A DNA stretch of 64,000 nt from Bacteroidia bacterium (GTDB lineage: Bacteria; Bacteroidota; Bacteroidia; Bacteroidales; Paludibacteraceae). The DNA lies in contig SAAO01000025.1 in the NCBI GenBank assembly GCA_009929375.1, positions 1 to 64,000 of the forward strand. Direction: 5' to 3'. Position 1 is the stretch's first letter, and each line of letters begins with the position of its first letter. Below are positions 2,126-39,796 of the stretch, in pieces. The translations under genes and the position numbers were made by a program. The notes below the pieces were generated by a model, which was not told where the DNA came from, searched no databases, and saw only the letters and a program-made list of their open reading frames with translations.

Positions 2126-2138
2126 GTCATTATAATTT

Positions 2139-22391: not shown

Positions 22392-23459
22392 TTGAAAAAT
22401 TCTGTTTTAACCAGCAATAAAAATCTTACTATTCTGCTGAGCGGGATAGTGTTGATTGTGCTTTATTTTCTTTTGAAATCGGTTGCTCCTGCATTCGATT
22501 TGTATGGAAATTTAACAAAGTTTTACGCGCTGACGGTTGGAAAAAGTTTCGAATGGCTGGCTAATCTGATTGGTTATCACGTTAGTTACGATTATTTAAG
22601 CGGTGAGATAATTTCCTCAGGTGGCACATTCAGTATAATGAATAAACTGGCAGTGAAATTTTATCTTCTAGCCTTTGTCATGGTTTTTATATTTCCTCGA
22701 AAATGGCTTAAATCCATGGGAGTTTTCGCGCTTGCATTTGCAGCATTATATATATTGTCTGTTTTACGTTTTTTTGTAGACCTTGCTCATCGCGAACAGG
22801 CAAACTATCTGTACCTTCCGTTGATTTATACCGGCAGATATCTTGTTCTCTTTTTTATTCTGAAATACAAAATCAGCATACATCCGCGCCTTCAGAACTA
22901 TCTCTTTAAAATCAATGAATCAATCCGCAACAAATTTCAGTTCAAACTAATGACGCTGATTTTATTATTCATCTTTGCTTTTGGATTTATGGGTTTTGTG
23001 GACTGGTTTCTGGTGGTTCAAAGCCAGTTATTTGTCGATTTTCTTTCGCAATGGATTCTGGGATATTCTGAATTTCTACTTAAAATAATGGGCTACCAAC
23101 CGGTTGTGGAAGGTTATCAGATTAATCTGGAACGAAACTGGGTATATCTTGGCACACCCTGCCTCGGAGCCGGTGTAATGACATTGTTTGCCATGCTTGT
23201 CAGCATTATAAAAAGCGACTGGCTCAACAAATTCATTTACATTATAATCGGCATTAACGTACTGATTTTTGCAAATGCTGTGCGTATTGTAGCTATTTTG
23301 CTGCATATTTATCTGTATAAAATTCAGGGAGATCTGATTCAGGATTATCACGGCATTTCGAATAACTTTTTCTACATTCTGGTATTTATCATGCTGGTGA
23401 TTTACGCCCGCTGGTTTGCCGATATCAAGTTCAGAAAAAAGCGTCTGCCCACGAATTGA
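22392..23459 (+). CDS. exosortase-family transpeptidase with a duplicated, degenerate N-terminal half
   Basis: This 355-residue polytopic membrane protein carries the exosortase/archaeosortase catalytic triad in its C-terminal half: Cys257 in GTPCLGAGVM, Arg298 in FANAVRIVAILLH and His320 in DYHGISNNFFY. The N-terminal half (about 12-165) repeats the same hydrophobic layout. It keeps the arginine (Arg126 in YILSVLRFFVDLAH), but has no Cys near residue 85 and no His near 145. Exosortases cut and transfer proteins bearing tripartite C-terminal signals. The subfamily is unassigned. Possible substrate: the PLDGG-tail protein at 13796. It lies just upstream of the rSAM/lipoprotein operon. Confidence 0.8.
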   Translation: MKNSVLTSNKNLTILLSGIVLIVLYFLLKSVAPAFDLYGNLTKFYALTVGKSFEWLANLIGYHVSYDYLSGEIISSGGTFSIMNKLAVKFYLLAFVMVFIFPRKWLKSMGVFALAFAALYILSVLRFFVDLAHREQANYLYLPLIYTGRYLVLFFILKYKISIHPRLQNYLFKINESIRNKFQFKLMTLILLFIFAFGFMGFVDWFLVVQSQLFVDFLSQWILGYSEFLLKIMGYQPVVEGYQINLERNWVYLGTPCLGAGVMTLFAMLVSIIKSDWLNKFIYIIIGINVLIFANAVRIVAILLHIYLYKIQGDLIQDYHGISNNFFYILVFIMLVIYARWFADIKFRKKRLPTN

Positions 23460-23586
23460 TAAAGTTGTGCTAAGATTAATCCGGAAAGAAGAAGCAGTTT
23501 TTTCACAATAAAGTACACATTGGGTGCAACACTTTTTGTAAAAATTTCATCTGTATTTGAGTAACAACTCATTAAAACCTTTCATT

Positions 23587-24087
23587 ATGAACCTGAAAAA
23601 TCACATTATCAGACTTACGAATATTTGCCTGGCCACACTGCTCGCAATATTTGGTTTCAGCAATTGCGAAGATCCCAGAGAGGAATACGGTGTACCCCAT
23701 GCCGACTACAATCTGAAAGGAAAAGTAATCGATAAATCCGATTCAAAACCATTAAAGGGAATCAGAATTGGTTTTAAACCATACTATCCCGAAGCAGTTC
23801 TCATGTATGGTGTTCCACCAACAGCCTACAGAACATACGATGCAGATACCACCGATGTGGAAGGCAATTACAATCTGACCGATCATTTTTCCATCGAAGA
23901 GATTCAGGGTGACACAGTCACAGTGTACGTACAGGATATTGATGGTGCGGAAAATGGTCTGTATCAGGATACCATAATGAAAGTTGATTTCAGCAACGCA
24001 AAAAAAAGCGGAAAGAGTACAGATTGGTACGATGGCATACTCACAGTTGAAAAGGACATTGAACTGAAACAAAAAACAGATGAATAA
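23587..24087 (+). CDS. radical SAM-associated putative lipoprotein (copy 1)
   Basis: The chosen start (11 codons into a longer open frame from 23557) gives a 166-residue protein with a lipoprotein signal ending GFSNC (Cys27). After it come YGVPHADYNLKGKVID, a carboxypeptidase-regulatory-like beta domain (about 40-130, LKGIRIGFKPYYP and TTDVEGNYNLTDHF), and DTVTVYVQDIDGAENG. This matches the rSAM/lipoprotein-system lipoprotein family (TIGR04134-like) of Bacteroidales. Its last 8 nt overlap the rSAM start (ATGAATAA). The role is unknown; it may be the substrate modified by the radical SAM partner. Confidence 0.85.
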   Translation: MNLKNHIIRLTNICLATLLAIFGFSNCEDPREEYGVPHADYNLKGKVIDKSDSKPLKGIRIGFKPYYPEAVLMYGVPPTAYRTYDADTTDVEGNYNLTDHFSIEEIQGDTVTVYVQDIDGAENGLYQDTIMKVDFSNAKKSGKSTDWYDGILTVEKDIELKQKTDE

Positions 24088-25150
24088 AACGCCAACTTTC
24101 CGCAAACGCATCGGACTTGAAATTTACCGCAAAATCAGGCACAATAATGTAAAGTTACACGAACTTAACACTCTTTTCTGGGAATGTACGTTGCGATGCA
24201 ATCTATCATGCAGACATTGTGGTAGTGATTGTCGCGTACAGTCGGACAAAAAAGATATGCCTGTTGCCGACTTTATGCGGGTGATTGATGAAATAACCCC
24301 GCATGTAAATCCGAACAAAACAATGATAATTTTCACAGGTGGAGAGGCTTTACTCCGTAAAGACCTTGAAATTTGTGGTAAGGAATTATACGACAGAGGA
24401 TTTCCCTGGGGACTCGTAAGCAACGGTATGGCTCTGACACCGCAACGATTTCAATCGCTGCTTGCTTCGGGATTGCATTCCATCACAATTAGCTTTGATG
24501 GATTTGAGGAAGCGCATAACTGGCTGCGCGGAAATCATAAAAGTTATGCAAATGCACTCAATGCCATTAAAATGCTCACAAAGGTAAAAAACATTGTATG
24601 GGATGTGGTTACCTGCGTGAATAAAAAGAATATCAGCGATTTAAATGCGTTCAAAGAATTTTTAATTGAAACAGGTGTAAAAGACTGGCGGATATTCACC
24701 ATTTTTCCGGTTGGGCGTGCAGCCGAATCGCCTGAACTTCAGCTTTCGAATGCAGAATTCACTTCGGTACTCGATTTTATTCGCGAAACCCGAAAAGAAA
24801 ACCGCATTCATTTAAGCTACGGCTGCGAAGGTTTTCTGGGAAACTATGAACAAGAAGTACGCGATCATTTTTATACCTGTCATGCAGGAATTAATGTAGC
24901 TTCCGTTTTGGCAGATGGATCAATTTCTGCCTGTCCGAGTATTCGTTCCAACTTTAATCAGGGAAATATATATACCGATAATTTTTGGCAAGTGTGGAAT
25001 GACAGATTCAAACCTTTCCGCGACCGTAACTGGGCGCACACAGGCGCTTGCGCCGATTGCGAAATGTGGCGTTACTGCGAAGGAAACGGAATGCACCTGC
25101 ATGATGATGAAGGTAAATTGATGGTATGCCATTATCAGCGTATAAACTAA
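24080..25150 (+). CDS. radical SAM/SPASM enzyme of the rSAM/lipoprotein system (copy 1)
   Basis: This 356-residue enzyme has the radical SAM CX3CX2C motif at Cys40, Cys44 and Cys47 (CNLSCRHC), followed by IIFTGGEALLRKDLE. A C-terminal SPASM domain (about 265-350) shows CHAGINVASVLADGSISACP and CADCEMWRYCEGNG, which should hold auxiliary Fe-S clusters. SPASM enzymes usually modify peptides or proteins. It is translationally coupled to lipoprotein 1 and paralogous to the enzyme at 25572. It fits the TIGR04133-like family. The target and chemistry are not known. Confidence 0.93.
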   Translation: MNKTPTFRKRIGLEIYRKIRHNNVKLHELNTLFWECTLRCNLSCRHCGSDCRVQSDKKDMPVADFMRVIDEITPHVNPNKTMIIFTGGEALLRKDLEICGKELYDRGFPWGLVSNGMALTPQRFQSLLASGLHSITISFDGFEEAHNWLRGNHKSYANALNAIKMLTKVKNIVWDVVTCVNKKNISDLNAFKEFLIETGVKDWRIFTIFPVGRAAESPELQLSNAEFTSVLDFIRETRKENRIHLSYGCEGFLGNYEQEVRDHFYTCHAGINVASVLADGSISACPSIRSNFNQGNIYTDNFWQVWNDRFKPFRDRNWAHTGACADCEMWRYCEGNGMHLHDDEGKLMVCHYQRIN

Positions 25151-25202
25151 ATTGTGAGTTATTCTGATTTTAGAAAAATTAATCTGATAAAACGACAAGA
25201 TC

Positions 25203-25571
25203 ATGAAAGTAAACTGGAAAAAGAACTTATTCAAAGGTTTGTGTTTAACCTCAGTAGCATTTGTATTTCAGGCATGTTATGGCACTCCACAGGATTTCGG
25301 GCAGGATGTATTAATCGAGGGAAGAGTCGTCTCAAAAAACAGCAATTTACCTGCTAAAGGGATAAAAATTACAATTGAAGACGGCCCACAGTATGTCTAT
25401 ACTGACAACGAAGGCAATTTTGGCTTTTACACAATGCAACGCGACAACCTTAAATTAACTTTCGAAGATATTGACAGTACAGAAAACAGACAATTTATCA
25501 AAAAAGACACTTTACTGAGAATTACTGACGAAAAGGTAATGGTGAACATAATGCTTGACGAAAAAGAATAA
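25203..25571 (+). CDS. radical SAM-associated putative lipoprotein (copy 2)
   Basis: This 122-residue lipoprotein has a signal ending FVFQAC (Cys25), directly followed by YGTPQDFG, which echoes the YGVPHADY of copy 1. A regulatory-like beta domain follows, with VLIEGRVVSKNSNLPAKGIK and TDNEGNFGFYTM. It is 44 residues shorter than copy 1, lacking the PYYP insert and the C-terminal extension, so the copies have diverged. It lies 52 nt after rSAM copy 1, and its stop codon touches the start codon of rSAM copy 2. Confidence 0.85.
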   Translation: MKVNWKKNLFKGLCLTSVAFVFQACYGTPQDFGQDVLIEGRVVSKNSNLPAKGIKITIEDGPQYVYTDNEGNFGFYTMQRDNLKLTFEDIDSTENRQFIKKDTLLRITDEKVMVNIMLDEKE

Positions 25572-26630
25572 ATGGGAAATGCAATAAAAAATTACATTTT
25601 CAGGCAATTCAAAAAGACGGAAACCCGAAAACACGAGTTGAATTATCTGTTTTGGGAATGTACCACAAGCTGTAATCTAAATTGCATACATTGCGGAAGC
25701 GATTGTTCAAAAGACAGCCGGCAGAAAGACATGCCCTTTACGGATTTTCTGAAAGCCATTGTAACAATAGAAAATCCGGCTAAGAATTTCACAGTTGTGT
25801 TTACGGGTGGCGAACCACTACTTCGCAAAGATATAGAGTCCTGTGGAAAAGAACTTCGAAAAAGAGGCTTTCGCTGGAGTATGGTGACAAACGGTTTTTT
25901 GTACAACGAAGAAAGACATATTTCGTTGATGAATGCAGGTTTGGGGGCACTCACCATGAGCCTTGATGGTTTGAAAGATTCGCACAACTGGCTCAGAAAT
26001 AATCCCAAAAGTTTTGAAAAGGTGGACAGAGCCATTGGATTGGCTGCAAGTTCTTCGCGTCTTAATTTCGATGTGGTGACCTGTGTAAATCAACGAAACA
26101 TCAACGAATTGGAAAATATCCGGCAATATCTTATCGGAAAAGGAGTTAAATCATGGCGACTTTTCACAATAATTCCCATTGGCAGGGCAGCCGATAACCC
26201 GGAGCTACTTTTAACAGACAGTCAGTTTAAAAAACTGTTGAATTTTATCGAATTATCAAGAGAAAAAGACGAACTCGATGTAAAGTTCAGTTGCGAAGGT
26301 TATGTTGGTTGCTACGAATGGAGAGTACGAGATTCAGGATTCTTTTGTCGTGCAGGTATCAATATAGGCTCTGTTTTAATAGACGGATCAATATCAGCCT
26401 GTCCGAACATCGACAGATCATTCGCACAGGGAAATATTTATAATGACAATTTCTACGAAGTATGGCAAACGAAATTTCAGCCCTTCAGAAACAGAACCTG
26501 GACAAAAACCGGGAAATGTGCCAACTGCAAAGAATATAAAAATTGTATGGGAAACGGATTTCATAACTGGCATGGCGACATGAAAAATGTGCTTGTATGC
26601 CACAATGACCTTATTAAAGAAAGCCCCTGA
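25572..26630 (+). CDS. radical SAM/SPASM enzyme of the rSAM/lipoprotein system (copy 2)
   Basis: This 352-residue paralogue of the enzyme at 24080 has CX3CX2C at Cys34, Cys38 and Cys41 (CNLNCIHC), VVFTGGEPLLRKDIE, and the SPASM region CRAGINIGSVLIDGSISACP with CANCKEYKNCMGNG. Motif order and spacing match copy 1 throughout, so the pair arose by duplication of a lipoprotein-rSAM unit. The ATG follows the stop of lipoprotein 2 with no gap. The gene ends 16 nt before the convergent PL9-like gene. Its probable terminator lies inside that gene (26659-26688). Confidence 0.93.
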   Translation: MGNAIKNYIFRQFKKTETRKHELNYLFWECTTSCNLNCIHCGSDCSKDSRQKDMPFTDFLKAIVTIENPAKNFTVVFTGGEPLLRKDIESCGKELRKRGFRWSMVTNGFLYNEERHISLMNAGLGALTMSLDGLKDSHNWLRNNPKSFEKVDRAIGLAASSSRLNFDVVTCVNQRNINELENIRQYLIGKGVKSWRLFTIIPIGRAADNPELLLTDSQFKKLLNFIELSREKDELDVKFSCEGYVGCYEWRVRDSGFFCRAGINIGSVLIDGSISACPNIDRSFAQGNIYNDNFYEVWQTKFQPFRNRTWTKTGKCANCKEYKNCMGNGFHNWHGDMKNVLVCHNDLIKESP

Positions 26631-26646
26631 AACCCACGATTTAATT

Positions 26647-27966
26647 TTACTTCTCCTCAAAAGCACCTAAGTCAGGTGCTTTTCCTTTATAGGGAAATCC
26701 GGCGTCGGTACCTTTATTGATAAGCTTACTCCTTTTAGTCAAACGGAGAAAATCGTTTTGCGGAAGGCTTCCATCAAGCTCACGGGCTGCCATAAGCAAA
26801 GATTCGTCAAGACTTTTGAAATCCTTTTCGTTCACCTTCATATTATCGGCAAAACTATTTGTAATCAGCTCATTTTGTTTTGGATCGATATATTGCGTAT
26901 CGTATGTACGGGCTTTTAGCGATAAATTATTTATTAATTTATGTCCGAAGCCTGAAACCGAAGCTGTAAAATCAGCATTGCGATTCAGCATATTGAAATT
27001 TGTACCATTGCGATAAGCCGTATTATTTATCCATACGTTTCCCGCTGGATGATGATTTGAATAAAATCCGTTGGCTTTATTACCCACAGCCACACAAAAG
27101 CGAATGACATGACCCTTGATTGAGTCCGGAACCCGCTGATCTTTTTTCAGGCCCCAACCTCCGGCTTTAAAACCATTTCCATCGCCAAGACTCTCAAAAT
27201 CGGTGGAATATCCATTATAAAATGCCCAGCAGTTTTCAATAACAACTGTTTCGGCCGAACGAATAAGGTCGTAACCGTCGTCGCTGTTGAACCATGCGCG
27301 ACAACCACGAATCACATTTCCCACATCACCCGGTCCGCCATGAAAACCAAACCCATCGACGTTGCCACCCCGACCACCTTCGGAAGTGTAATCGGCATTG
27401 TTCCATGCATCACAATTGAATACCAGATTATGCGAACCTTTGTTCAGATAGAAACCAATGGCCTGACCATCGAACATCGAAAGCTGTTCGTAAATATTAT
27501 GACTTCCTTCATTGTGGAAACATTCCGACTGTGTATGCGTGAGAATAGTCACCTGCACACCTGTCACACTGAGGCCTCTGAAATGAATCCATGAACCCGT
27601 CACATTAAAAGCCATAATGCGCTTGTTTACAGGTTTTACATTCGAGAAATCAAACACAGGCTTTTCGCCCGGATATGCAAAATAGTGAATGCGTTTATCA
27701 GGTTCTCCGCTTTTGCGTAAATCATGTACAAAAGCCCATATTCTCTGCACACGGGCGATCTGATTCTCATTCATTACATACTTTCCTCCTCTTACAAATA
27801 CCGTATCGCCGGGCAAAACAGCTTCCTGAGCACGCATAATGCCTGCAAAAGGCTGTTCTTTTGTACCCGGATTTTCGTCGTTACCATCCACAGCCACATA
27901 AAAAGTTCGTGCCGCAACAGTGAAAGTGAGGGTCAGCAATATTATAATGTATAAAAATCGTTTCAT
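26647..27966 (-). CDS. PL9-like secreted pectate/rhamnogalacturonan lyase, no T9SS tail
   Basis: This 439-residue protein has a signal peptide (about 1-19, TVAART) and a right-handed parallel beta-helix (about 20-430). It shows the PL9-type segments GRGGNVDGFGFHGG, CRAWFNSDDGYDLI and GDGNGFKAGG, whose Asp residues fit the Ca2+ site, and ANGFYSNHHPAGN. PL9 enzymes cut polygalacturonate or the rhamnogalacturonan backbone by beta-elimination. It ends right after LGAFEEK, so unlike its neighbour it has no T9SS domain and probably stays periplasmic or leaves by another route. The exact substrate is inferred from the locus. Confidence 0.87.
   Translation of the reverse strand: MKRFLYIIILLTLTFTVAARTFYVAVDGNDENPGTKEQPFAGIMRAQEAVLPGDTVFVRGGKYVMNENQIARVQRIWAFVHDLRKSGEPDKRIHYFAYPGEKPVFDFSNVKPVNKRIMAFNVTGSWIHFRGLSVTGVQVTILTHTQSECFHNEGSHNIYEQLSMFDGQAIGFYLNKGSHNLVFNCDAWNNADYTSEGGRGGNVDGFGFHGGPGDVGNVIRGCRAWFNSDDGYDLIRSAETVVIENCWAFYNGYSTDFESLGDGNGFKAGGWGLKKDQRVPDSIKGHVIRFCVAVGNKANGFYSNHHPAGNVWINNTAYRNGTNFNMLNRNADFTASVSGFGHKLINNLSLKARTYDTQYIDPKQNELITNSFADNMKVNEKDFKSLDESLLMAARELDGSLPQNDFLRLTKRSKLINKGTDAGFPYKGKAPDLGAFEEK
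26659..26688 (+). terminator. rSAM operon terminator inside the convergent PL9-like gene
   Basis: AAAAGCACCT at 26659-26668 pairs perfectly with AGGTGCTTTT at 26674-26683 (loop AAGTC), followed by a T-rich run. On the minus strand the same bases encode part of the C-terminal KAPDLGAFEEK of the lyase, so coding and terminator overlap. Confidence 0.6.
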
Positions 27967-27977
27967 TGGGCTTTGCT

Positions 27978-29591
27978 TTAAAGTTTTACAATTTTATACA
28001 CAAAAAACTCATTGTCAGCATTTTTTATTCTGAGAAAATAGATTCCCTGATTCAAAAATGCGAGATTGATTTTATTCTGTGCATTGAAAACAGCCATAAT
28101 ATTTCCTTTTATATCAAATACTTCTGCAGTCACAATATTATTCATAGAAATATAAATATTATCGTTGAACGGATTGGGATAAACTTTTAAATCGTTCCGG
28201 TTTACAGAACCAAGTGCAGTACTCTCTTCAGATTCGAAAGCCCCCAAATCGGGTGCAGCACCGGAATACGGGAACCCCAAATCGACACCTTTATTGATCA
28301 GATCGCTACCCTGTTTTAAGCGGAGAAAGTTCACTCTGGGCAAACTTCCATCAGCCTGTCGGGGCCCCAAGAGCAAAGCTTCGTCGAGACTCATAAAATC
28401 GTCGGTGCTTACAACCACAGCTATACCCGGCATAAACGAATTAAACTGATTTGTACTTGTTCCCAGATTCAGAGTATCCCGCTGCGACGAATATTTAAGC
28501 GAAAGATTATTCTTCAGAATATGACGAATACCTGCACAGTCGATAGTGGTATCGTTGCCTGTTTTGGCACTTTTGCTAATCATTTGGCTCAGCATATTGA
28601 AATTGGTAGAATTCCGGTAAGCTGAATTATTGTACCATATATGTCCGGTCTCCACATGATGATTGGCGTAAAAACCATTTGCCTTGTTTCTGTAAGCCAG
28701 GCAAAAACGAACCACATTTGACGGAACCGGAGTCGGGAGTGAAGAGACCTTGGGTGCCTGACCATAGCCTCCGATTTTAAAACCGTTGCCATCGCCACAA
28801 CTTACGAAACCTGTGGAATAGCCATTGTAAAAAGCCCAGCAATTATCAAAAACCACACTTTCCGAATTGCTGATACAATCGTAACCATCGTCGCTGTTGA
28901 GCCACGCCCGGCAACCACGAATGACATTGCCCTTGCTATCCTTATTGCCATGAAATCCAAAGCCATCCACATTTCCACCTCTTCCAGAGTCCGAAACAGG
29001 ATCCCAGTTATTGTATGCATCGCAATTCAGCACGAGATTATTAGCACCTTTGGTCAGATAAAAGCCGATAGCCATACCATCTCGCATCACACATTGTTCG
29101 TAAATATTATTGCTGCCACCTTCGTTGCGAAAACATTCGCTTTGCGTATGGGTTGTGATGGTCACCTGAGTTCCAATAATTTCCAAACCTTTGAAATGCA
29201 GCCACGAACCTTTTACATAAAACACAATATTTCTGAAACCCGCAGGTTTTACAGCCGACATGTCGATAATCGGTTTTTCGTCCCTGAAAGCGTGATAACA
29301 GATGCGTTTTGCAGCCGATATACCACTTTTATCGAGGTAATTCATGTAGGCCCAAATGCTGTAATAACGATCGACATCCGCTTCCCTCATTTTATAAGTA
29401 CCACCACGCAAAAACACAGTATCGCCGGCAACCACAAAGCTTTGCGCTTTCATAATGGTGCGGAAAGGATTCTCAACAGAGCCCGTACCTGTCGTGTCGT
29501 TTCCCGCTGGAGCAACGAAATAGTTTGCGGCCTGTGCCAACATTGAAAGCACAAGCAAAACAAGCAACAGAAAACAAGGCAAATACTTCAT
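27978..29591 (-). CDS. PL9-like lyase with T9SS sorting domain
   Basis: This 537-residue paralogue of the gene 12 nt downstream has a signal peptide (about 1-21), then a beta-helix with the same landmarks: GRGGNVDGFGFHGNKDS, CRAWLNSDDGYDCI, GDGNGFKIGG and ANGFYANHHVETG. After DLGAFESEE comes a linker and a type A T9SS domain (about 465-537, VYPNPFNDNIYISM, then GIYFLRIKNADNEFFVYKI). This copy should reach the cell surface or medium while its twin does not. It was probably formed by tandem duplication. Confidence 0.9.
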   Translation of the reverse strand: MKYLPCFLLLVLLVLSMLAQAANYFVAPAGNDTTGTGSVENPFRTIMKAQSFVVAGDTVFLRGGTYKMREADVDRYYSIWAYMNYLDKSGISAAKRICYHAFRDEKPIIDMSAVKPAGFRNIVFYVKGSWLHFKGLEIIGTQVTITTHTQSECFRNEGGSNNIYEQCVMRDGMAIGFYLTKGANNLVLNCDAYNNWDPVSDSGRGGNVDGFGFHGNKDSKGNVIRGCRAWLNSDDGYDCISNSESVVFDNCWAFYNGYSTGFVSCGDGNGFKIGGYGQAPKVSSLPTPVPSNVVRFCLAYRNKANGFYANHHVETGHIWYNNSAYRNSTNFNMLSQMISKSAKTGNDTTIDCAGIRHILKNNLSLKYSSQRDTLNLGTSTNQFNSFMPGIAVVVSTDDFMSLDEALLLGPRQADGSLPRVNFLRLKQGSDLINKGVDLGFPYSGAAPDLGAFESEESTALGSVNRNDLKVYPNPFNDNIYISMNNIVTAEVFDIKGNIMAVFNAQNKINLAFLNQGIYFLRIKNADNEFFVYKIVKL

Positions 29592-29635
29592 TTTAATACA
29601 TTTGCAAAAAGAATAATTTCAGGAATCATTACTTT

Positions 29636-29733
29636 AACTACGAATTACACAAATTACACGAAAAAGAAATTCGGTGAATATATGTCTGGCAATTCTCATC
29701 CAAATGCTACGCAAAACTATGAAACATGAAACT
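29636..29733 (+). repeat. 98-bp dispersed repeat, copy 1
   Basis: The stretch beginning AACTACGAATTACACAAATT and containing ATATATGTCTGGCAATTCTC recurs at 35435-35531 in the same orientation at nearly 90 percent identity by eye. Both copies lie in spacers of the pectin locus. Simple TTCAAATC repeats follow at about 29767-29800. Confidence 0.8.
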
Positions 29734-29802
29734 CGAAACCATGAAACTTTTAAACCGCGGAACTCAATCTTCAAATCTTCAAATCTTCAAATCTTCAAAC
29801 AA

Positions 29803-32220
29803 TTACCTGGTTGATTCAATCACTATCTTTCCGGATTTCAATCCTTTTCCCGAAACTGAAAGTTCGATATTTCCGGCATTATTCGAGGATTGAAGCGTTA
29901 CCACTAACTTTCCGCTAAATGTTTTCATTGTCGGCAAATGAAACTGTTCGAGCGAAGTTGCATCGCCATTGCAAACTGCACGGAATTTTCCGGCTCCTTT
30001 TGTCGAAAACTTCAACTGATTTGTGGCTGTGGGACAAAGATTTCCTTTTTTATCGACCACCGAGACAGTGACGTAGCTCAGGTCTTCGCCATCGGCTTTT
30101 ATAAGGCTGCGATCAGCTTCGAGTTTCAGCGCATAGGGTTTTCCGGCTGTGGAGACCGATTTTTCGGCTACTGCTTTTCCTTTATCATCGTAAGCTACTA
30201 CTTTAATCGTTCCGGGTTCATATTTCGCATTCATCCACATCAGGCGGTAACGCTCAAGCTTCGAATTTTTATTTTTGTGCTGAATGCCCTGACTTTTTCC
30301 GTTGATAAAAAGTTCGGCGCTGTTGTAATTTGTATATACAAAAACTGGCGTTACTTCGCCTTCGCGACCGGGCCATGTCCAATGAGGTAAAATGTGAAGC
30401 GTTTCGTCCTCTGTATTCCAGCGGCTTCTGTAAAGATAATAGCGATCCTTAGGCAAGCCGGCCAAATCGCAAATACCAAAGTACGAACTGCGCGAAGGCC
30501 AGTAGTTATCGTAAGGTGTTGGTTCACCCAGATAATCGAAGCCAGTCCACACAAATTCGCCAATCACCCAGGGTTTATCGTCCTGCATTTCGAAATCCAC
30601 TTCGGGAATATTCGACCAGTTACAGGCTTCCAAATCGTAGGACGAAGACTGCAAATCATCATAAGTTTTATCCTTATATTCCTTTACCGGAAATTTATAA
30701 ATGCCGCGTGAACTTACTGTCGATGCAGTTTCGGAACCGAGCAAAATACCCTGAGGGAATCGTTTGTAAGCATCTTCGTACAAATTTACCCTGTAGTTCA
30801 GACCCGGAATATCCATAATGGCACCGAAACCATTCTCCATAGTTGTTTTCACCTGATCCATTCCCACTGTGACAGGACGTGTCGGGTCTTCGCGATGAAA
30901 GATATCCTGCAGCCATTTGGCACGTTTCACTCCTGCTTCTCCCCATTGATCGGGAACTTCATTTCCTGAACTCCACATTACAATACATGGATGATTGCGG
31001 GTTGCGTGCACAAGATTCACCACATCCTTTTCGGCCCATTCGTCGAAATAAAGGTTGTAGCCATTTTTTACTTTTGGTTTTTTCCATTCGTCGAAGCTTT
31101 CAGCCAGAAAAAGGAAACCCATTTCGTCGCAAAGTTCAAGTTGCTCGATGGAAGGCATGTTGTGCGACGAGCGAATGGCATTACAGCCCATATCCTTTAA
31201 AATTGTGAGCTGACGACGCAGAGCGGCTTTGTTGATGGCAGCACCCAGCGGACCAAGATCGTGATGCAAACAAACGCCTTTGAATTTGGTCGTTTTTCCG
31301 TTGAGTTCGAAGCCTTTTTCGGCACTGTATTTAATTATTCGAACTCCGAAGCGGATAGTTTCGGAATCTTTCAGCGTATTTTCCTGAAAAAGTTGCATTT
31401 CAGCCGTATAAAGATAAGGAGTTTCAGGGCTCCAGCGTTTCGGGTTTCTTAAACCGATGTTTTGTTCTATTTCGTCGCCAAAGCGCTGATTGGTTTTATT
31501 TTCGACTACCACATTTCCTTCAGCATCACGAATAATAGTTCTGACCTGAAGGTTTTCGCCCTGCACCTGCGAACGGATATTTACTTTGGCAAGACCATCA
31601 GTGACAAAAGGAGTAGTAATAAAATGTGCCCATTGTTTGAAGCTTTCGTTGTTTTTGACAATCAACTGCACTTTTCGGTAAAGTCCCGCGCCGGGATACC
31701 AACGTGAAGAAAACGGGTGATTTTCGAGGCGCACTGCAATTGTATTAACCCCCTGAATTTTCAAATATGCGGTAATATCAAAATAGAAATAGCTGTAACC
31801 ATAAGGCCATATTCCTACCCGCTGACCGTTTACAAATACCTGAGCATTGCTCATGGCACCGTCGAAAGCGAGAATGGCTTTTTTACCTTCCGAAAACTCA
31901 GAAACTGACAAACGGGTACGATACCAGCCCACGCCAATAAACGGCAACGAACCAGTGCGACCGGTTTTTTCACTGGCCACTTTTTCGTTGTTTTGCACAA
32001 TCTGCACAATCTGTTTATCAATTTCCTTGTCGAATGGCCCGTAAATAGCCCAATCGTGCGGAACTTTTACAGTCTCCCATTCTTCATCATTGAAATTGAC
32101 TGTAGGAGCCGACTGATTATCGCCTTTTGAAAACTTCCATGAATCGAGATTTCTTATCGACGTTTGTGCAAATAAACCAGCACTTAAAAGCATACAAAGC
32201 AATAGAGTTGTCTTTTTCAT
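29803..32220 (-). CDS. GH2 beta-galactosidase-like enzyme
   Basis: The start chosen is the tenth codon of a longer frame, giving signal peptide MKKTTLLLCMLLSAGLFAQ and 805 residues. The GH2 order is sugar-binding jelly roll (about 25-190), Ig-like domain, TIM barrel (about 290-590), then extra beta domains (DUF4982-like, with VFVYTNYNSAELFINGKSQG, and an invasin-like Ig domain). The probable acid/base Glu is in MWSSGNEVPDQWG and the nucleophile Glu is in ILLGSETASTVSSRG. In this locus it probably removes beta-galactose from RG-I side chains after export. It could also act on other beta-glycosides. Confidence 0.92.
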   Translation of the reverse strand: MKKTTLLLCMLLSAGLFAQTSIRNLDSWKFSKGDNQSAPTVNFNDEEWETVKVPHDWAIYGPFDKEIDKQIVQIVQNNEKVASEKTGRTGSLPFIGVGWYRTRLSVSEFSEGKKAILAFDGAMSNAQVFVNGQRVGIWPYGYSYFYFDITAYLKIQGVNTIAVRLENHPFSSRWYPGAGLYRKVQLIVKNNESFKQWAHFITTPFVTDGLAKVNIRSQVQGENLQVRTIIRDAEGNVVVENKTNQRFGDEIEQNIGLRNPKRWSPETPYLYTAEMQLFQENTLKDSETIRFGVRIIKYSAEKGFELNGKTTKFKGVCLHHDLGPLGAAINKAALRRQLTILKDMGCNAIRSSHNMPSIEQLELCDEMGFLFLAESFDEWKKPKVKNGYNLYFDEWAEKDVVNLVHATRNHPCIVMWSSGNEVPDQWGEAGVKRAKWLQDIFHREDPTRPVTVGMDQVKTTMENGFGAIMDIPGLNYRVNLYEDAYKRFPQGILLGSETASTVSSRGIYKFPVKEYKDKTYDDLQSSSYDLEACNWSNIPEVDFEMQDDKPWVIGEFVWTGFDYLGEPTPYDNYWPSRSSYFGICDLAGLPKDRYYLYRSRWNTEDETLHILPHWTWPGREGEVTPVFVYTNYNSAELFINGKSQGIQHKNKNSKLERYRLMWMNAKYEPGTIKVVAYDDKGKAVAEKSVSTAGKPYALKLEADRSLIKADGEDLSYVTVSVVDKKGNLCPTATNQLKFSTKGAGKFRAVCNGDATSLEQFHLPTMKTFSGKLVVTLQSSNNAGNIELSVSGKGLKSGKIVIESTR

Positions 32221-32248
32221 TTTTTTAAGAGTATATAGCAAAGACATG

Positions 32249-33640
32249 TCAATACTTCAGGGTATACACATCTTTTATGATTACAAAATTGTTTGTACTT
32301 CCAAAAATTGTTTTCGATTTATCAGTCCACACAGGATGTTCAGCAAGCACCTGAATCTGAACAACATATTCTCCATGCTTCAGAGCCGGACTCACAAACA
32401 CCTGCGAAACAGTTTCTTTTTTAGAGTAACAATCGACAATAGTTTTCAGAATTTCGTTATTGTTTTTATCAGAGATTGTGATTTCCGCATATCCGCTTAT
32501 GTTGTTTGTCAGGGCTCTTACTCCAACTCTTGTTCCTGTGAAACGAAGGCGAAGATACGCATTTTTTTCGTCCGACATGAGCTGCAGAGGCTTTGTCTGC
32601 CAGTTACCGTACTTTTCGAATGGTTTGCCGAGAAGGGATTTTTCTCTTTGTTTCAGTTCGCGAAAACCTGATTTATCAGTTGTGGGTTTCCAACTTTCGA
32701 TATATTCAGGCAAAAAGGTTTCTCCACGGAATCTGACCGGTTGCCACACATAAGTAGCAGCCGAGCCCTGTTTCGGGAACGACCAGCGATCGCCCATGAA
32801 CATCCACATGGTATCTTTTTTATGAATTATAGGCAATACAAATGAGGTTTGTGAGTTCCATGTCAATGAACCTTCGGGCGCAAAAAGACCGCGATAAGTC
32901 CATGGGCCTTCCAGTGAAGTGGCCGTAAAATACATATTATCGTTCTTTTCCCAGCTGGTCAGGTTCGAGCTCAGCCAGTAATAAACGCCTCTGTGTTTAA
33001 AAATTGCCGGAGATTCACCACCTTTCTTCTGATTGACAACCAACCGCTTTATCGATTTATAATCGTCGGACAATTCGTAGATATATCCATGATGAATAAG
33101 CAGGTAGCCTTTTCCATCGGCATCCTGAAATGTGCCCATATCCCAGCGTCGTACAGCTTTAGCTTCAAACAGCAAAGGGCCTTTAAATTCGTAGATTCCA
33201 TCAATGGTTTTACTTGTGGCATAAGCAATTACAGGATCTTTATAAAAACGGTTATCGGAATGCATATACATCACAAACTCACCGGTGAAAGGACATTTCA
33301 TCACTTTCACACGTTCGCCCACACGGTTGGGACCCATCAGGCCACTGTCCTGAACAGGCAAAACCATTTTTTCGAATTTCCAGTTTATCAGGTCTTTCGA
33401 CGAATAACAACTAAAACCAGTGAAAACATTGGCTGTGTCCGATTTGTATTCACCAAAAAGATAATACAGGTCACCTTCCTTTACGATGCAGGCTCCGTGA
33501 GCATTTACTGTTCGCTTGTTCTGATCGAACCAAACTGTACCACTGTGAATAGCATTGTAAGCATTTTTCCGGAGCGTTTGAGCCGGAGAAAAACTGACAA
33601 CACCAAACCACAGCAGCAGTAAAAATATTCGGATTTGCAT
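32249..33640 (-). CDS. GH43-like secreted glycosidase (five-bladed propeller)
   Basis: This 463-residue protein has a signal peptide (about 1-20, SFSPAQ), a beta-propeller (about 30-320) and a C-terminal beta-sandwich (about 340-460). The early NAHGACIVKEGDLYYLFGEY and FQDADGKGYLLIHHG resemble the GH43 branch of exo-beta-1,3-galactanases, in which the usual catalytic base Asp is not conserved. Removal of galactan or arabinogalactan side chains would suit the locus, but substrate and subfamily are inferred. It is 25 nt downstream of the RhaM gene. Confidence 0.8.
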   Translation of the reverse strand: MQIRIFLLLLWFGVVSFSPAQTLRKNAYNAIHSGTVWFDQNKRTVNAHGACIVKEGDLYYLFGEYKSDTANVFTGFSCYSSKDLINWKFEKMVLPVQDSGLMGPNRVGERVKVMKCPFTGEFVMYMHSDNRFYKDPVIAYATSKTIDGIYEFKGPLLFEAKAVRRWDMGTFQDADGKGYLLIHHGYIYELSDDYKSIKRLVVNQKKGGESPAIFKHRGVYYWLSSNLTSWEKNDNMYFTATSLEGPWTYRGLFAPEGSLTWNSQTSFVLPIIHKKDTMWMFMGDRWSFPKQGSAATYVWQPVRFRGETFLPEYIESWKPTTDKSGFRELKQREKSLLGKPFEKYGNWQTKPLQLMSDEKNAYLRLRFTGTRVGVRALTNNISGYAEITISDKNNNEILKTIVDCYSKKETVSQVFVSPALKHGEYVVQIQVLAEHPVWTDKSKTIFGSTNNFVIIKDVYTLKY

Positions 33641-33664
33641 AAAAAGAGGTACTGTAAAACAGAA

Positions 33665-33979
33665 TTATTCCATGTAAAACACTTCGGGCAATGGAATTGA
33701 TACAGGCGAATTATCGGGATTTGTTTCCATAATATCAGCCATGTACGCCCACCAGCGCTGTACTATTTCGGTAGAGCCAAGGTCCTGAGAACCACCTTCA
33801 CCACTGTTTTTCTGTACAGCAAAAAGAATGTTCGTTTCCCTGTCCCAGAAAATAGAATAGTCGTACACACCTGCTTCTTTGAGCAGTTTTTTCAATTCCG
33901 GCCATATTTCATTATGGCGTTTTTCGTACTCAGCCTCAAAGCCGGGTTTCAGAAACATTTTAAAAGCCTGACGATTCAT
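33665..33979 (-). CDS. rhaM: L-rhamnose mutarotase
   Basis: This 104-residue cytoplasmic enzyme interconverts the alpha and beta anomers of L-rhamnose. Family hallmarks are FKMFLKPGFEAEYEKRHNEI, with the catalytic His17-like residue in KRHNEIWPEL, then YDYSIFWDRETNILFA and the C-terminal QRWWAYMADIME. Its presence shows that rhamnose released from the RG backbone is meant to be used. No rhaB, rhaI or rhaD homologue lies in this window. Confidence 0.93.
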   Translation of the reverse strand: MNRQAFKMFLKPGFEAEYEKRHNEIWPELKKLLKEAGVYDYSIFWDRETNILFAVQKNSGEGGSQDLGSTEIVQRWWAYMADIMETNPDNSPVSIPLPEVFYME

Positions 33980-34074
33980 AAGTATTTACTATTTAATGAT
34001 TTACAATTTACTATTTAAAGATTCATTGATCAATTCAGCAGCCGAAATAAAATATTCTCATAAAAACAAACAGC

Positions 34075-35253
34075 TTATTTTTCAAAAATACTGGTAGCTC
34101 CTTTCACTTTGAGAACCACCACACCATGAGCAGGAATTGTGAAGCCCATTTCAGCCCCCATTTTTCCCAAGTTTTTGTGTGCCCATAAATCTCTGACTTT
34201 GTACTTATTCGAAAGTCCCACCATTTCGGGTGTTAGTTTGTAAAGCACAACATTGTTCGAACGATTCATCAGCGCAATGGCTGTTTGTTTTCCTTTTTTG
34301 CCCAGTGGTTTAATCCATACCTCCACTGTTTTTTCTTTTTGTAAACGGCGCGCCTGACGGAAACCATCATCCTGATTCAGTGCAATAATTTCTTTGTTCG
34401 TCAGAATTCCGAGTGTTTCGGCCGACATGTTTCGCAAATCGTTGCCTGCCAGCAAAGGCGAATTCATCATACACCACATCGAAAAATGCGTTTTATCCTC
34501 CTCGTAACTCATTCCACGACCGACCTGAAGCATATCCATATCGTTGTAATGCCCCGGCGAAACATATTTGTACAAATCGGCATTCAGATCGATAATATGC
34601 AAAATAGACGAAAAGCGGTCAGTAATATCACCCGAAATCCGCCACGAGTCAGCTTTTGTTACCGCCCATTCGCCCGGAAACTGCCAGCGACAGATATTAA
34701 ATACTATATCCGGATTGGTGGCTTTTACAGCTGACAGAATTTTGAGATATTCAGTCTGTTCATCGAGTTTCTGACGTTCACCACCACACCAGTCCACTTT
34801 CAGAAAATCGTAGCCCCAATCGTTGAAAAAAGTCTCACAATCCTTCTCAACATGTCCGTAAATGCCTACTCCAAAGCCATTTTTATCATTGTCGTAAATG
34901 GACCCGCAGGTATTTGAACCCGCATCGGTATAAATTCCGGCTTTCAGACCTTTGCTGTGAATATAACCGGCCAGCGCTTTCATTCCCGAAGGAAATTTCA
35001 CTGAATCACAAAACAGTTTTCCATCTTTGTCGCGACCGCCAAAATAACCATCGTCGATGTTTACAAACCGGTATCCGGCCTTGTACATTCCCGACAAAAT
35101 CATGGCATCAGCCTGTCCACGAATCATTTCCTCATTAATATTGATTCTGAAATGATTCCAGCTACTCCAGCCCATTATCGGTTTTTTCTGCGCCGGTAAC
35201 AGAAATACCAATCCAAACAACAGCCCTGCAATACAAAATAATTTTACTCTCAT
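34075..35253 (-). CDS. GH27 alpha-galactosidase
   Basis: Starting at codon 30 of a longer frame gives signal peptide MRVKLFCIAGLLFGLVFLLPAQ, and the mature enzyme begins PIMGWSSWNHF as in GH27. The 392 residues comprise a TIM barrel (about 25-300) and a C-terminal antiparallel beta domain. The nucleophile Asp is in FLKVDWCGG and the acid/base Asp in SWRISGDITDRF. NIDDGYFGGRDKDG and YTDAGSNTCGS are also typical. It likely removes terminal alpha-galactose from plant glycans. The long frame upstream has no signal sequence and was not used. Confidence 0.92.
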   Translation of the reverse strand: MRVKLFCIAGLLFGLVFLLPAQKKPIMGWSSWNHFRININEEMIRGQADAMILSGMYKAGYRFVNIDDGYFGGRDKDGKLFCDSVKFPSGMKALAGYIHSKGLKAGIYTDAGSNTCGSIYDNDKNGFGVGIYGHVEKDCETFFNDWGYDFLKVDWCGGERQKLDEQTEYLKILSAVKATNPDIVFNICRWQFPGEWAVTKADSWRISGDITDRFSSILHIIDLNADLYKYVSPGHYNDMDMLQVGRGMSYEEDKTHFSMWCMMNSPLLAGNDLRNMSAETLGILTNKEIIALNQDDGFRQARRLQKEKTVEVWIKPLGKKGKQTAIALMNRSNNVVLYKLTPEMVGLSNKYKVRDLWAHKNLGKMGAEMGFTIPAHGVVVLKVKGATSIFEK

Positions 35254-35434
35254 GGTATTATTTTTAAAATATATTGCAAATATAGACCTTTTGACGGCAT
35301 TAACAAAGCCTAAAGAAAGCATGACCAATTTACAATTCAACCATTAACAATTTACTGCATTGGGCATTCCATACGATTTACCCGCATTACACTCAACAAC
35401 TAACCAACTCGAAACCATGAAACTTAATATTTCA

Positions 35435-35531
35435 AACTACGAATTATACAAATTACACGAAAAGAAAATCAGTGAATATATGTCTGGCAATTCTCATCCG
35501 GGTACTACACAAAACTTTGAAACATAAAACT
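35435..35531 (+). repeat. 98-bp dispersed repeat, copy 2
   Basis: This is the partner of 29636-29733, same orientation, between the GH27 and GH105 genes. Short GAAACATGAAACTT tracts surround both copies. Confidence 0.8.
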
Positions 35532-35562
35532 TTGAAACATGAAACTTAGAACACGAAACAAC

Positions 35563-36972
35563 TCACTTCACCAAAAAAATAGGCTCTTCGGTTTTCTGCT
35601 CCTGATCGTAGAACTGTACCGCGCTGTCGTTCATTTTCGGGAAATTATTTTTTTGCAAAGCCAATATTTCAGCTCCGGCAAGCAACACAGGACCATAGCC
35701 GTGCGCAGCATATTTATGAACAGGACGATAATAATAAAACGCAGGATCGAAGCCCATGCCTGTACCCACGCAGGTTCCTTCCACTTCACCCGCATCGTTT
35801 ATTTTGGTGGAAACAGCATGCCACCCCAAAGTAGCCACAGGTCCGTAAGCCAGTGCATCGAGCCAGCCATTATTCACTCCACGGGCAATACAATAGGTAA
35901 AAATTGCTGTAGCCGAAGTTTCAAGGTATGAATCGTTGCGATCCAGAAGCTGATGCCAGAAACCTTCGCCCGACTGCAATGCTGCAATTCCGGCCACATG
36001 CTCACGGTAAAGTTGTAAAACCTCATCGCGACCGGCATAATTCTCGGGCAACACATCCAGCACTTCGGTAAGTGTGAGAATGGCCCAACCATTGGCACGA
36101 GCCCAGTGAAAAGCAGGATGCGGATCCATACTTTCGACCCAACCGTGGCGGAACAACTGTTTTTCGGGCACCCACATACGACTTTTGAACAATGATATTT
36201 GTTTTAAAACCTCATCGAAATACAGATTTTCGCCACTGAATTTTCCCATCCAGGCAATGGCAGGAATGGCCATATACATATCGTCGAGCCAAACGGTGTT
36301 GTGCTGCGGACGATTACGGGCAAAAGTGCCATCAGCCAGGCGATATTCTTTGTGCATGATGTAATCAATATATCGCTCAATAAGCGGACGGCTGTTGAAC
36401 TTTATACCCATTAACTGACCACGAAGCATCGAAGCGCACACAGCCCCGGCATCGTCAAGGGCTTCGGGATGCACCACCTTCACCATTTGATATTCGGAAA
36501 TTCCTTCGTTTTGTAATTTTTCGAAATAAGGAGCCACATCAGCCAGAAACTTAAATCTGTCGGCAGCATAAGCCTTGTATCGTTTATCGCCGGTTACTTC
36601 GGCCACATGTAGCACAGCCGAGTAAGTTACACCCCACTCATAGCTTGTAAGGCGGAACTGACCACGCTCAAGTTCCGAATTTTTATCAATTTTACTGTAA
36701 TCGGTAATTTCGTTTTTGGTTTCCTTGTCGATCACTTTTGTGGGAGTAGCATTTTCGAGAAAAGCCAGCACACGATCGATAGAAGCTTTTACCGATGCGC
36801 TGTCCACCATTCCGTAGGGTGTTTTGTATTCGGGTTGCATAAGGTGCAGCGGCGTATTGGAGTCATTGACTTTGTGATTCGAATTATCAGTTTTTACACA
36901 GGAAGTCATATTCGTCATCATAAGCGCACACAACAAAGCGCAAAATCCGGTTTTCAGTCTGATTGTATTCAT
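35563..36972 (-). CDS. GH105 unsaturated rhamnogalacturonyl hydrolase, lipoprotein
   Basis: Starting at codon 12 of a longer frame gives 469 residues with lipoprotein signal MNTIRLKTGFCALLCALMM and lipobox TNMTSC. It also avoids overlap with the GH28 gene, whose stop is at 36977. The (alpha/alpha)6 barrel shows TVWLDDMYMAIPAIAWMG, HWARANGWAILTLTEVLDVLP, and a region around YLETSATAIFTYCIARGVNNG. GH105 removes the unsaturated uronic acid left by PL9/PL11 lyases. Lipid anchoring places it in the periplasm or on the outer membrane. Confidence 0.92.
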   Translation of the reverse strand: MNTIRLKTGFCALLCALMMTNMTSCVKTDNSNHKVNDSNTPLHLMQPEYKTPYGMVDSASVKASIDRVLAFLENATPTKVIDKETKNEITDYSKIDKNSELERGQFRLTSYEWGVTYSAVLHVAEVTGDKRYKAYAADRFKFLADVAPYFEKLQNEGISEYQMVKVVHPEALDDAGAVCASMLRGQLMGIKFNSRPLIERYIDYIMHKEYRLADGTFARNRPQHNTVWLDDMYMAIPAIAWMGKFSGENLYFDEVLKQISLFKSRMWVPEKQLFRHGWVESMDPHPAFHWARANGWAILTLTEVLDVLPENYAGRDEVLQLYREHVAGIAALQSGEGFWHQLLDRNDSYLETSATAIFTYCIARGVNNGWLDALAYGPVATLGWHAVSTKINDAGEVEGTCVGTGMGFDPAFYYYRPVHKYAAHGYGPVLLAGAEILALQKNNFPKMNDSAVQFYDQEQKTEEPIFLVK

Positions 36973-36976
36973 GGTA

Positions 36977-38377
36977 TTAATATGTGGGTTCAGTGGGTTT
37001 TTCAATATTTTCAGAACTTATCTTTTCTTTTGGAAAAAACTTTTCTACATTTTGGTGGATGTGTTTTCTGTCTGTTACTTCAGCAGCACGCACCTTTTTC
37101 AAACGCACATCGCTGACGGGCAATTCCTTTTCGCCCAGAATGCGGGAAACGAATTTTACTTTTCCTGCATTAATATTTTGTAAACGGACTTTGCTAACGG
37201 GTGTCAAAACCCTGTCGTAAGTAGGCATAAGCGTACGCCACTGATAAAGCACATCGGTTTCGATACCCAGAATCCCCTCACTCATATTTCCCGCGTTTAC
37301 ATTTTCAACTATTATATTCCTGACAAAGCCACCACGTCTTTCGTTCGTTTTGATAAAAACCAAATGAAACATTTTGGCATTCGGAGCCACATTGCAGTTC
37401 GTCATATACACATTTTTGATGCCACCCGAGAGTTCACTTCCAATGGCCAGCAGTTGATGTCCGTTTTTCACTTCGCAATTGCGGATCACCACATTACGCG
37501 TGGGTGTGGCCAGTCGCCATGCTTCGTGGTCGCGACCGGATTTCACGGCAATGGCATCGTCGCCCTGATCGAACACGCAATGCTCTACCAACACATTCTG
37601 AGTCATTTCCGGATCGTAACCATCATTATTATGTCCGTGTGCATATACATTCAGTTTTCGCAACAATACGTTTTTACACAGGTAAGTATGAATGGTCCAG
37701 AAAGGCGAATTTTCAATACTGAAACCTTCTAAGCGGATATTTTCGCAACGGTTGAAATGAATCAGATGCGGACGCAGGTTGGCAGTATCGTTCACCATAT
37801 CGCGTTCGGCAGTCGGCACATTCTGGTGCGCCAGATTGTAAAGCCGTATCAAACTGTTCATGTGTCCCTGTGGACGACCAAACCATTTGCGCCAGTGCTC
37901 CATTCGGGCTTTGATTTTTCCCTCACCCGTGATGGCAATATTTTTACATTCGTAAGCATAAAGCAGAGGCGAATAGTTCATGCACTCCAGACCCTCCCAA
38001 CTTACGGGCACTGCAGGCAGATAGTCCTGTGGATTATCGCTGAAAAGCAACACAGCTCCTTTGCTTAAATGCAGATTTACATTACTTTTGAAATGCAGTT
38101 TTCCTGTAAGCCACTCTCCTTCAGGAATCACAACACGTCCCCCACCCGCCTTGTAAGCCGCATTTATCGCCTCGGCAATTGCTTTCGAGTTTGCCGACTG
38201 ATTATTCTGAGCAGCTCCGAAGTCGGTAATTACAAAAACGGGACAGTCAGAAAAATCGGGCACATTCAGTACAGGCATCCTGAATGGAGCCGACACACGG
38301 ATTTTTTCAGTTTTTACCGAAGCAAAAACAGAAAATGACAAAACGAGTAACAGTATTGAAAGAAGTTTGCGAAACAT
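36977..38377 (-). CDS. GH28 polygalacturonase / rhamnogalacturonan hydrolase
   Basis: This 466-residue secreted beta-helix enzyme has a signal peptide (about 1-19, SVFAS). GH28 catalytic blocks are visible: NNDGYDPEM, FDQGDDAIAVKSG (paired Asp) and GHQLLAIGSE (His). The early DCPVFVITDFGAAQ and GGRVVIPEGEWLTGKL are typical of bacterial family members. It hydrolyses galacturonosyl links in homogalacturonan or the RG backbone. The spacer to the CE12 gene (38378-38646) has AATTTACAATT tracts and a CGCAGAGCCGCTAAGACGC fragment. Confidence 0.93.
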   Translation of the reverse strand: MFRKLLSILLLVLSFSVFASVKTEKIRVSAPFRMPVLNVPDFSDCPVFVITDFGAAQNNQSANSKAIAEAINAAYKAGGGRVVIPEGEWLTGKLHFKSNVNLHLSKGAVLLFSDNPQDYLPAVPVSWEGLECMNYSPLLYAYECKNIAITGEGKIKARMEHWRKWFGRPQGHMNSLIRLYNLAHQNVPTAERDMVNDTANLRPHLIHFNRCENIRLEGFSIENSPFWTIHTYLCKNVLLRKLNVYAHGHNNDGYDPEMTQNVLVEHCVFDQGDDAIAVKSGRDHEAWRLATPTRNVVIRNCEVKNGHQLLAIGSELSGGIKNVYMTNCNVAPNAKMFHLVFIKTNERRGGFVRNIIVENVNAGNMSEGILGIETDVLYQWRTLMPTYDRVLTPVSKVRLQNINAGKVKFVSRILGEKELPVSDVRLKKVRAAEVTDRKHIHQNVEKFFPKEKISSENIEKPTEPTY

Positions 38378-38646
38378 CTTTTTAATTTACAATTTAGCAA
38401 TATATAATTTACAATTGGGTAGTTCTGTCAATCAAAAAATCAACAGTTCAACCAAACAAAATGAAAGTTTGAAAACGTTTTTATCACGCAGAGCCGCTAA
38501 GACGCAAAAGATAAAAATCATAGATTTTTATGAGTTCATATATCTTTAAGCGTTTTTAAATCTTCAAATTCCAAAACTTGTCCTCCGCGGGCGGATCTTC
38601 AAATTCCCAATTTTCAAATTTTCAAATCCCCAACCCTGAAACGTCC

Positions 38647-39537: not shown

Positions 39538-39796
39538 ATAATAGATATTTAAACCCCTAACCCCTAAAGGGGAATAAGAGTGTGATATTTTGTGCTTTTT
39601 CAAACAACACCTTAAAAGAGCGAAGGAAACAGAATTTCATTCACAAAGTTCTGAAAATATATCGGGCTGCTCCATAGAGAAAAGTACATATCACTGAAAA
39701 TACATGCATTTGACTTTATTTTCATCCTATATTGATTCAGAAGGCCGTATTTTTGATTTGTGTTGTTCGGCAAAAATTTTCAAAACAACTAAAATG

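Follow-up and report, generated by a model that had tools for sequence, protein, structure and literature searches.

The closest described relatives of the genes considered here are the NCBIfam families TIGR04133 (rSAM_w_lipo), which comprises radical S-adenosylmethionine (rSAM) enzymes, and TIGR04134 (lipo_with_rSAM), which comprises their lipoprotein partners; a full-text literature search, mostly of journals outside subscription, found no paper on either family name. A locus in a Bacteroidia bacterium of the Paludibacteraceae (assembly GCA_009929375.1, contig SAAO01000025.1, positions 1 to 64,000, the whole stretch of 64,000 nucleotides analysed and hereafter the window) shares the gene order and gene coupling of these families in Bacteroidales, but it differs from the described loci in carrying two paralogous lipoprotein-rSAM pairs in tandem (A and B), an arrangement seen in none of 80 named loci, and in that its lipoprotein B falls short of the TIGR04134 cut-off and carries a Tyr-Gly dipeptide without a linker after the lipobox Cys. 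Our best joint explanation, to which we assign a probability of about 0.6, is that the locus holds two old paralogous enzyme-substrate pairs in which the cognate rSAM enzyme modifies a YGxP block of the lipoprotein before export.

Among better described systems, the triceptide (three-residue cyclophane) enzymes are likewise SPASM-type rSAM proteins: YxdB, YhhB and ScaB link an aromatic residue i with the beta carbon two positions further on (i+2), the aromatic residue being Tyr for YxdB and YhhB and, in a mutated substrate, for ScaB; in some SPASM enzymes this bond starts from C3 of the Tyr (PMC11002830). Their substrates are short peptides, whereas the substrate proposed here, at about 120-170 amino acids (aa), is an exported protein, and the best matches of the window rSAMs after TIGR04133 include heme-pathway SPASM enzymes (AhbD, NirJ2), TIGR04053 and peptide maturases, the nif11-class maturase models among them. 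Seven Cys in the SPASM region of the window enzymes, spaced C249-X17-C267-X17-C285-X38-C324-X2-C327-X5-C333-X16-C350, resemble the full AhbD motif, CX20-33CX17CX36-37CX2CX5CX2CX17-35C (PMC10452713), but all 17 enzymes that we aligned lack the Cys shortly after C333, which, going by AhbD, would be an AuxI ligand.

Two paralogous lipoprotein-rSAM pairs in tandem

The two pairs lie head to tail downstream of an exosortase-like gene, with the following features (window positions):

22392..23459, + strand: exosortase-like membrane protein, 355 aa, putative start TTG
23160..23162, + strand: codon of exosortase Cys257, putative nucleophile, invariant in the exosortase alignment
23587..24087, + strand: lipoprotein A, 166 aa, lipobox-like GFSNC, Cys27
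23686..23697, + strand: YGVP block at residues 34-37 of lipoprotein A, where rSAM A is proposed to act
23806..23817, + strand: second YGVP, lipoprotein A residues 74-77
24080..25150, + strand: rSAM A, radical SAM/SPASM protein, 356 aa
25203..25571, + strand: lipoprotein B, 122 aa, lipobox Cys25
25278..25289, + strand: YGTP block at residues 26-29 of lipoprotein B, starting at the residue next to the lipobox Cys
25572..26630, + strand: rSAM B, radical SAM/SPASM protein of the second paralogous group, 352 aa

An earlier note on this DNA had described the five open reading frames, the ATGAATAA overlap of lipoprotein A and rSAM A at 24080, the lipoprotein B stop abutting the rSAM B start at 25571/25572 and lipoproteins of 166 and 122 residues, and we found all of these as described; rSAM A and lipoprotein B are separated by 52 nucleotides (nt). 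The 97 nt gap that it gave between the exosortase stop and lipoprotein A, however, reaches only an upstream in-frame TTG at 23557, and we take the ATG at 23587 as the start, 127 nt from the exosortase stop, because it fits both the 166 aa length and the start of the homologue at L069.

The suggested TIGR04133/TIGR04134-type identity was borne out for both enzymes and for lipoprotein A: rSAM A (629.5 bits) and rSAM B (476.1 bits) exceed the curated TIGR04133 cut-off of 425, and lipoprotein A (99.2 bits) exceeds that of TIGR04134 (39.8). Lipoprotein B stays under both the latter cut-off (33.3 bits) and the 32.2 bits of PF13715 (31.7 bits), and is 40-54% identical by blastp to the B-type lipoproteins of G283, G291, G169, G196 and G247; judged by sequence similarity, it is a relative of the TIGR04134 family below the family threshold. 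Both PF04055 and PF13186 match rSAM A above their cut-offs, and the Pfam SPASM model (PF13186) matches only this enzyme of the two, since a search at E 0.1 did not find it in rSAM B. The residues of the CX3CX2C site (C40, C44, C47), the seven SPASM-region Cys given above and His339, which lies near C333, are nevertheless invariant across the 17 aligned enzymes, A and B included.

The two enzymes share about 50% identity, and each has a much closer counterpart in G283, a genome of the same genus, where the A enzyme matches rSAM A at 79% identity and the B enzyme matches rSAM B at 70% (blastp, 16 rSAM genes) and the A and B pairs lie about 20 kb apart. In an rSAM tree of 75 rows out of 112 collected, one of them an outgroup, all 10 enzymes encoded beside Cys-Tyr-Gly (CYG) lipoproteins fall in one group of 12 (support 96/99), and rSAM B is placed in this group; the root serves for drawing only, and long branches leave the inner order of the CYG-type group unsure. 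The other two members come from G066 (L279), whose rSAM adjoins a protein with YGAP after an apparent plain signal peptide, and from G055 (L292), whose lipoprotein lies after the rSAM. Enzyme classes track lipoprotein classes in the tree. Searched with our own model at E 1e-60, the 80 named loci show a single rSAM gene apiece; these loci are the best 80 of 589, with flanks of up to 10 kb (shorter on short contigs), and three of the 80 repeat genomes also counted under G handles. By their sequences, then, A and B belong to distinct paralogous subfamilies and are no recent copy. The most plausible origin of the window's tandem is that two old pairs came to lie together, not that one pair was recently duplicated, because the CYG-type group is separate at 96/99, there is one rSAM per named locus and the G283 pairs lie apart. 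Two tandem rSAM genes also occur in G201 and G290, outside the B group and beside a single protein of 260-262 aa.

Coupling of lipoprotein and rSAM genes

With a lipoprotein filter of 30 bits and 110 aa, which 100 lipoproteins from 69 named loci passed, an upstream lipoprotein was found at 68 of the 80 named rSAM loci and none at the other 12. The two genes overlap at 29 of these 68 loci, lie 0-30 nt apart at 27, 31-400 nt apart at 10 and further apart at two, so that at 56 of the 68 the lipoprotein gene overlaps the rSAM gene or ends within 30 nt of it. This spacing distribution leads us to conclude that the coupling is no chance arrangement. Bacteroides fragilis and Dysgonomonas are represented among the named loci, and in a sample of the order TIGR04133 matches at E 1e-60 occur in 36 of 149 genomes, which include all 18 genomes with TIGR04134 above its cut-off.

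The proposal in the earlier note that each rSAM modifies its own lipoprotein is upheld as regards the match between classes, but the relation is not strictly one to one: at 20 of the 69 named loci with a lipoprotein passing the filter there are at least two, and YGxP lipoproteins unlinked to any rSAM gene also occur in genomes that carry the enzyme elsewhere. Arrays of four lipoproteins stand upstream of a single rSAM at L129, L131, L133, L145 and L163, with a fifth, at about 30 bits, at L145.

A YGxP block near the lipoprotein N-terminus

The YG[TV]P block remarked on earlier, which begins 7 residues past Cys27 in lipoprotein A and immediately past Cys25 in lipoprotein B, proved to be the right feature to notice, as YGxP is present in 94 of the 100 paired lipoproteins of the named loci and in at least one lipoprotein at 68 of the 69 loci. 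Across 111 aligned lipoproteins (114 collected plus the two of the window, less L071, L072, L092, L099 and L153:9261-9989, although the YGxP-less L099 is still counted among the 100) the Tyr is conserved in 99%, the Gly in 98% and the Pro in 93%, next to 99% for the lipobox-like Cys. With orphans included, 151 of 175 different proteins have the block; in 144 of the 151 the nearest preceding Cys, which need not be the lipobox Cys in every protein, stands 1 to 21 residues ahead of the block, and none lies within 32 residues in the remaining 7. Glu precedes the Tyr in 88 and Met in 27 of the 151 first motifs; position i+2 is occupied by T, C, V, S, M, A or Q in 148 of them and by Gly in one. A second YGxP occurs in 14 of the 151 proteins, a number that in 500 shuffles averaged 2.5 and never exceeded 10.

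The proteins L279:1066-1839 and L283:1054-1836, relatives of about 260 aa, have no lipobox Cys and carry YGAP directly after an apparent plain signal peptide. We had considered the lipobox Cys as the common modified residue, a candidate that these two YGxP relatives speak against; the Cys is therefore not the common target.

Alternatively, the block might be a recognition or lipoprotein-export motif, with the rSAM modifying the lipoprotein elsewhere, for example at W147/Y148-G150 or D117-D119 of type A, where W147 is conserved in 69%, Y148 in 56%, G150 in 73% and D117 in 83% of the 111 lipoproteins. We consider a target elsewhere rather unlikely, as the W147-G150 stretch is gapped in lipoprotein B, the D and G positions resemble, in our reading, parts of a beta-sandwich fold, and, once the signal peptide and the fold are set aside, no block common to A and B is stronger than YGxP.

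YGxP and the presence of the enzyme

A syntenic locus common to the window genome and to G241, G252 and G291 of the same genus, which share four flanking genes (by eye TrmH-like, S41 peptidase-like and two unnamed), allows lipoproteins with and without an adjacent enzyme to be compared; in G287 the contig ends beside the lipoprotein, and the locus is linked through an RdgB-like neighbour and another of roughly 780 aa, as in G252 and G291. An rSAM gene is present at this locus in G241, whose one lipoprotein has YGTP, and in G252, where one of two lipoproteins has YGTP and the other lacks the block. It is absent in G291, G287 and the window genome, and none of their three lipoproteins has YGxP; the comparison reads presence and absence, and the differences may be losses or gains. 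G287 has no TIGR04133 gene above the cut-off anywhere in its genome. The orphan of the window genome (G000:C63:8933-9373, or L202:7934-8374), which scores 76 bits against TIGR04134, has neither an adjacent rSAM nor YGxP, in a genome that carries both pairs.

More widely, we hand-picked, among the matches listed, 31 orphan lipoproteins that have no TIGR04133 gene in their vicinity; L262 and L263 among these are under the TIGR04134 cut-off, and G213:C50:12203 was excluded since a two-piece rSAM lies a few kb away. YGxP is present in 21 of the 26 orphans from genomes with TIGR04133 above the cut-off and in 1 of the 5 from genomes without (Fisher p 0.017, uncorrected for kinship). In the order sample, where the unlinked lipoproteins that could be read all come from enzyme-bearing genomes, those of G136, G033 and G027 (the last below the TIGR04134 cut-off), two of G129 and one of G147 have the block. 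A B-type YGTP lipoprotein also lies beside an rSAM fragment at L282 (G022:C80), in a genome without a TIGR04133 match at E 1e-60; the enzyme of G022 may be cut or broken.

Several observations weigh against YGxP as the enzyme's target. Six of the 100 paired lipoproteins lack the block (L099, L108, L129, L145 and two of L163), YG being kept in four, and L099 is the sole lipoprotein of its locus; further lipoproteins without YGxP stand beside an rSAM gene in G252, at L264 (one), at L281 (one) and at L292. Five of the 26 orphans from enzyme-bearing genomes have no YGxP, including that of the window genome and that of G291, which also figures in the syntenic comparison and carries a B-type pair elsewhere, and in the order sample the same holds for three more unlinked lipoproteins, one of G129 and two of G147. 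Conversely, G253 (76% complete) has no TIGR04133 gene and yet carries a YGCP protein. The orphans lacking YGxP may be older divergent relatives instead of losses, and the block could serve as a docking or export signal.

The rSAM might also make a small molecule or act on another protein, with the lipoprotein binding or carrying the product at the surface, as the heme-pathway SPASM models AhbD and NirJ2, which stand with peptide maturases among the best-scoring models after TIGR04133, could suggest. We find this improbable: four different lipoproteins (five at L145) upstream of one rSAM fit a substrate better than a carrier, as do the repeated YGxP blocks and the lack of the motif where the enzyme is missing.

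Proposed mechanism

From the observed homology, gene order and YGxP conservation, and from the absence of YGxP without an enzyme at the one syntenic locus, we propose that the rSAM/SPASM enzyme would bind its cognate lipoprotein precursor in the cytoplasm, ahead of Sec export; that it would then modify the YGxP block, destined to lie near the mature lipid-anchored N-terminus; and that the modified lipoprotein would finally be exported and lipidated. Radical SAM chemistry is located in the cytoplasm, and modification should therefore precede export. YGxP would thus be the chemical target and not merely a docking site, and the enzymes would act partly in trans, on unlinked lipoproteins.

As to the chemistry, we weakly favour, by analogy, a crosslink between the side chains of Tyr(i) and residue i+2, a Y-G-x ring being a sensible first guess because of the SPASM precedents for Tyr-to-i+2 bonds and the composition of position i+2. 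A fuller and bolder form, in which TIGR04133 enzymes install a Tyr-to-i+2 ring in Y-G-[TCVSMA]-P near the mature lipoprotein N-terminus, each enzyme serves several lipoproteins, whether linked to it or not, and the two old classes A and B are tuned to different anchor-tag spacings, is speculative, and we think it unlikely to hold in every part.

The exosortase-like neighbour

The protein encoded upstream of the pairs scores above the cut-offs of TIGR04178 (32.2 bits, cut-off 23) and PF09721 (28.2 bits, cut-off 25.7), and below those of XrtX (45.4 bits, cut-off 170), XrtY (40.9, cut-off 160) and XrtF (20, cut-off 90). With these exosortases it has in common the core domain and the invariant Cys, Arg and His that form the exosortase catalytic triad: C257, R298 and H320 are invariant in six aligned exosortases, the window's included (one row is truncated at the N-terminus), and Cys257 is presumably the catalytic nucleophile, as in the exosortase family. 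At 355 aa it is, however, far longer than the XrtX, XrtY and XrtF models (168-174 positions), its N-terminus being extended by an additional membrane half of about 180 aa (window 22392-22930), and among the matches listed open frames of at least 300 aa occur only in G000, G408 and G385. By eye the N-terminal half resembles a decayed second copy of the core (profile-profile hhalign P 0.062, five N-terminal rows), and it may be a decayed internal duplicate.

The earlier note had linked this gene to the pairs, as parts of one export or processing system, and had proposed a genome survey. They share a strand and are separated by 127 nt, in which, as the note had said of terminators, no + strand terminator-like site was called, although the scan was weak (it called 8 sites in the region, where shuffles gave 3.4 on average); nor did the gap contain a Bacteroidetes-type promoter at up to 1 mismatch to the consensus TTTG-N17-23-TANNTTTG. 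Sigma-70 type sites in the region are in no excess (14 versus 13.5 in shuffles). Co-transcription of the exosortase with the pairs is possible.

The survey, however, revealed no neighbourhood conservation in the sampled genomes. A model of six exosortases, in which four long relatives and one truncated by a contig end joined the window's, found none in the flanks of the 80 named rSAM loci (up to 10 kb, less on short contigs), and no TIGR04133-type gene was seen around the five relatives, of which L065, L066 and L068 lie near contig ends. A search with the single window protein as query, which overlooks short exosortases of the ordinary type (the window genome's second exosortase is an example), found relatives in 19 of 149 order genomes and 10 of 150 family genomes. 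TIGR04133 matches at E 1e-60 occur in 7 of the 19 compared with 29 of the 130 other order genomes (p 0.25), and matches above the cut-off in 2 of the 10 compared with 64 of the 140 other family genomes (p 0.19); among the genomes with both, the two share a contig in the window genome alone. The usual exosortase tag, a C-terminal membrane helix followed by a basic tail, is absent by eye from both lipoproteins, and no tagged protein was seen by eye adjoining the exosortase gene in the window. A joint system is therefore very hard to credit. The exosortase looks like an unrelated, independent gene, since linkage and significant co-occurrence are both lacking in the genomes sampled, and its position upstream would then be coincidental; judging from its conserved residues, it is probably a working exosortase that happens to lie there.

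A profile search found the second, short exosortase of the window genome, of 198 aa, on a different contig (G000:C46, L203:8839-9435), between tsaD-like and glycosylase-like genes (by eye). In G123, L067:6456-6767 encodes a Pro/Gly-rich protein of 103 aa, with a membrane helix and a basic tail at its end, two genes upstream of a long exosortase; it has no NCBIfam match and, from these features judged by eye, is likely to be an exosortase target.

Elsewhere in the window, positions 26647-39603 hold beta-helix, glycoside hydrolase and esterase-like genes that by eye resemble a pectin-use cluster, and at positions 1022-3518 a tyrosine recombinase-like gene, together with the gene next to it, resembles by eye the end of a mobile element.

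Implications

The pairs in the window are of a known but uncharacterised kind, for which a testable target is now proposed. A statement that product and chemistry are unknown becomes a concrete and cheap test on one tetrapeptide in one lipoprotein, lipoproteins without an enzyme serve as natural controls for YGxP, and a misleading exosortase lead is removed. If the ring between Tyr and residue i+2 were true, these bacteria would carry a crosslinked tag on whole exported lipoproteins, perhaps one that resists proteases or sorts them to the surface.

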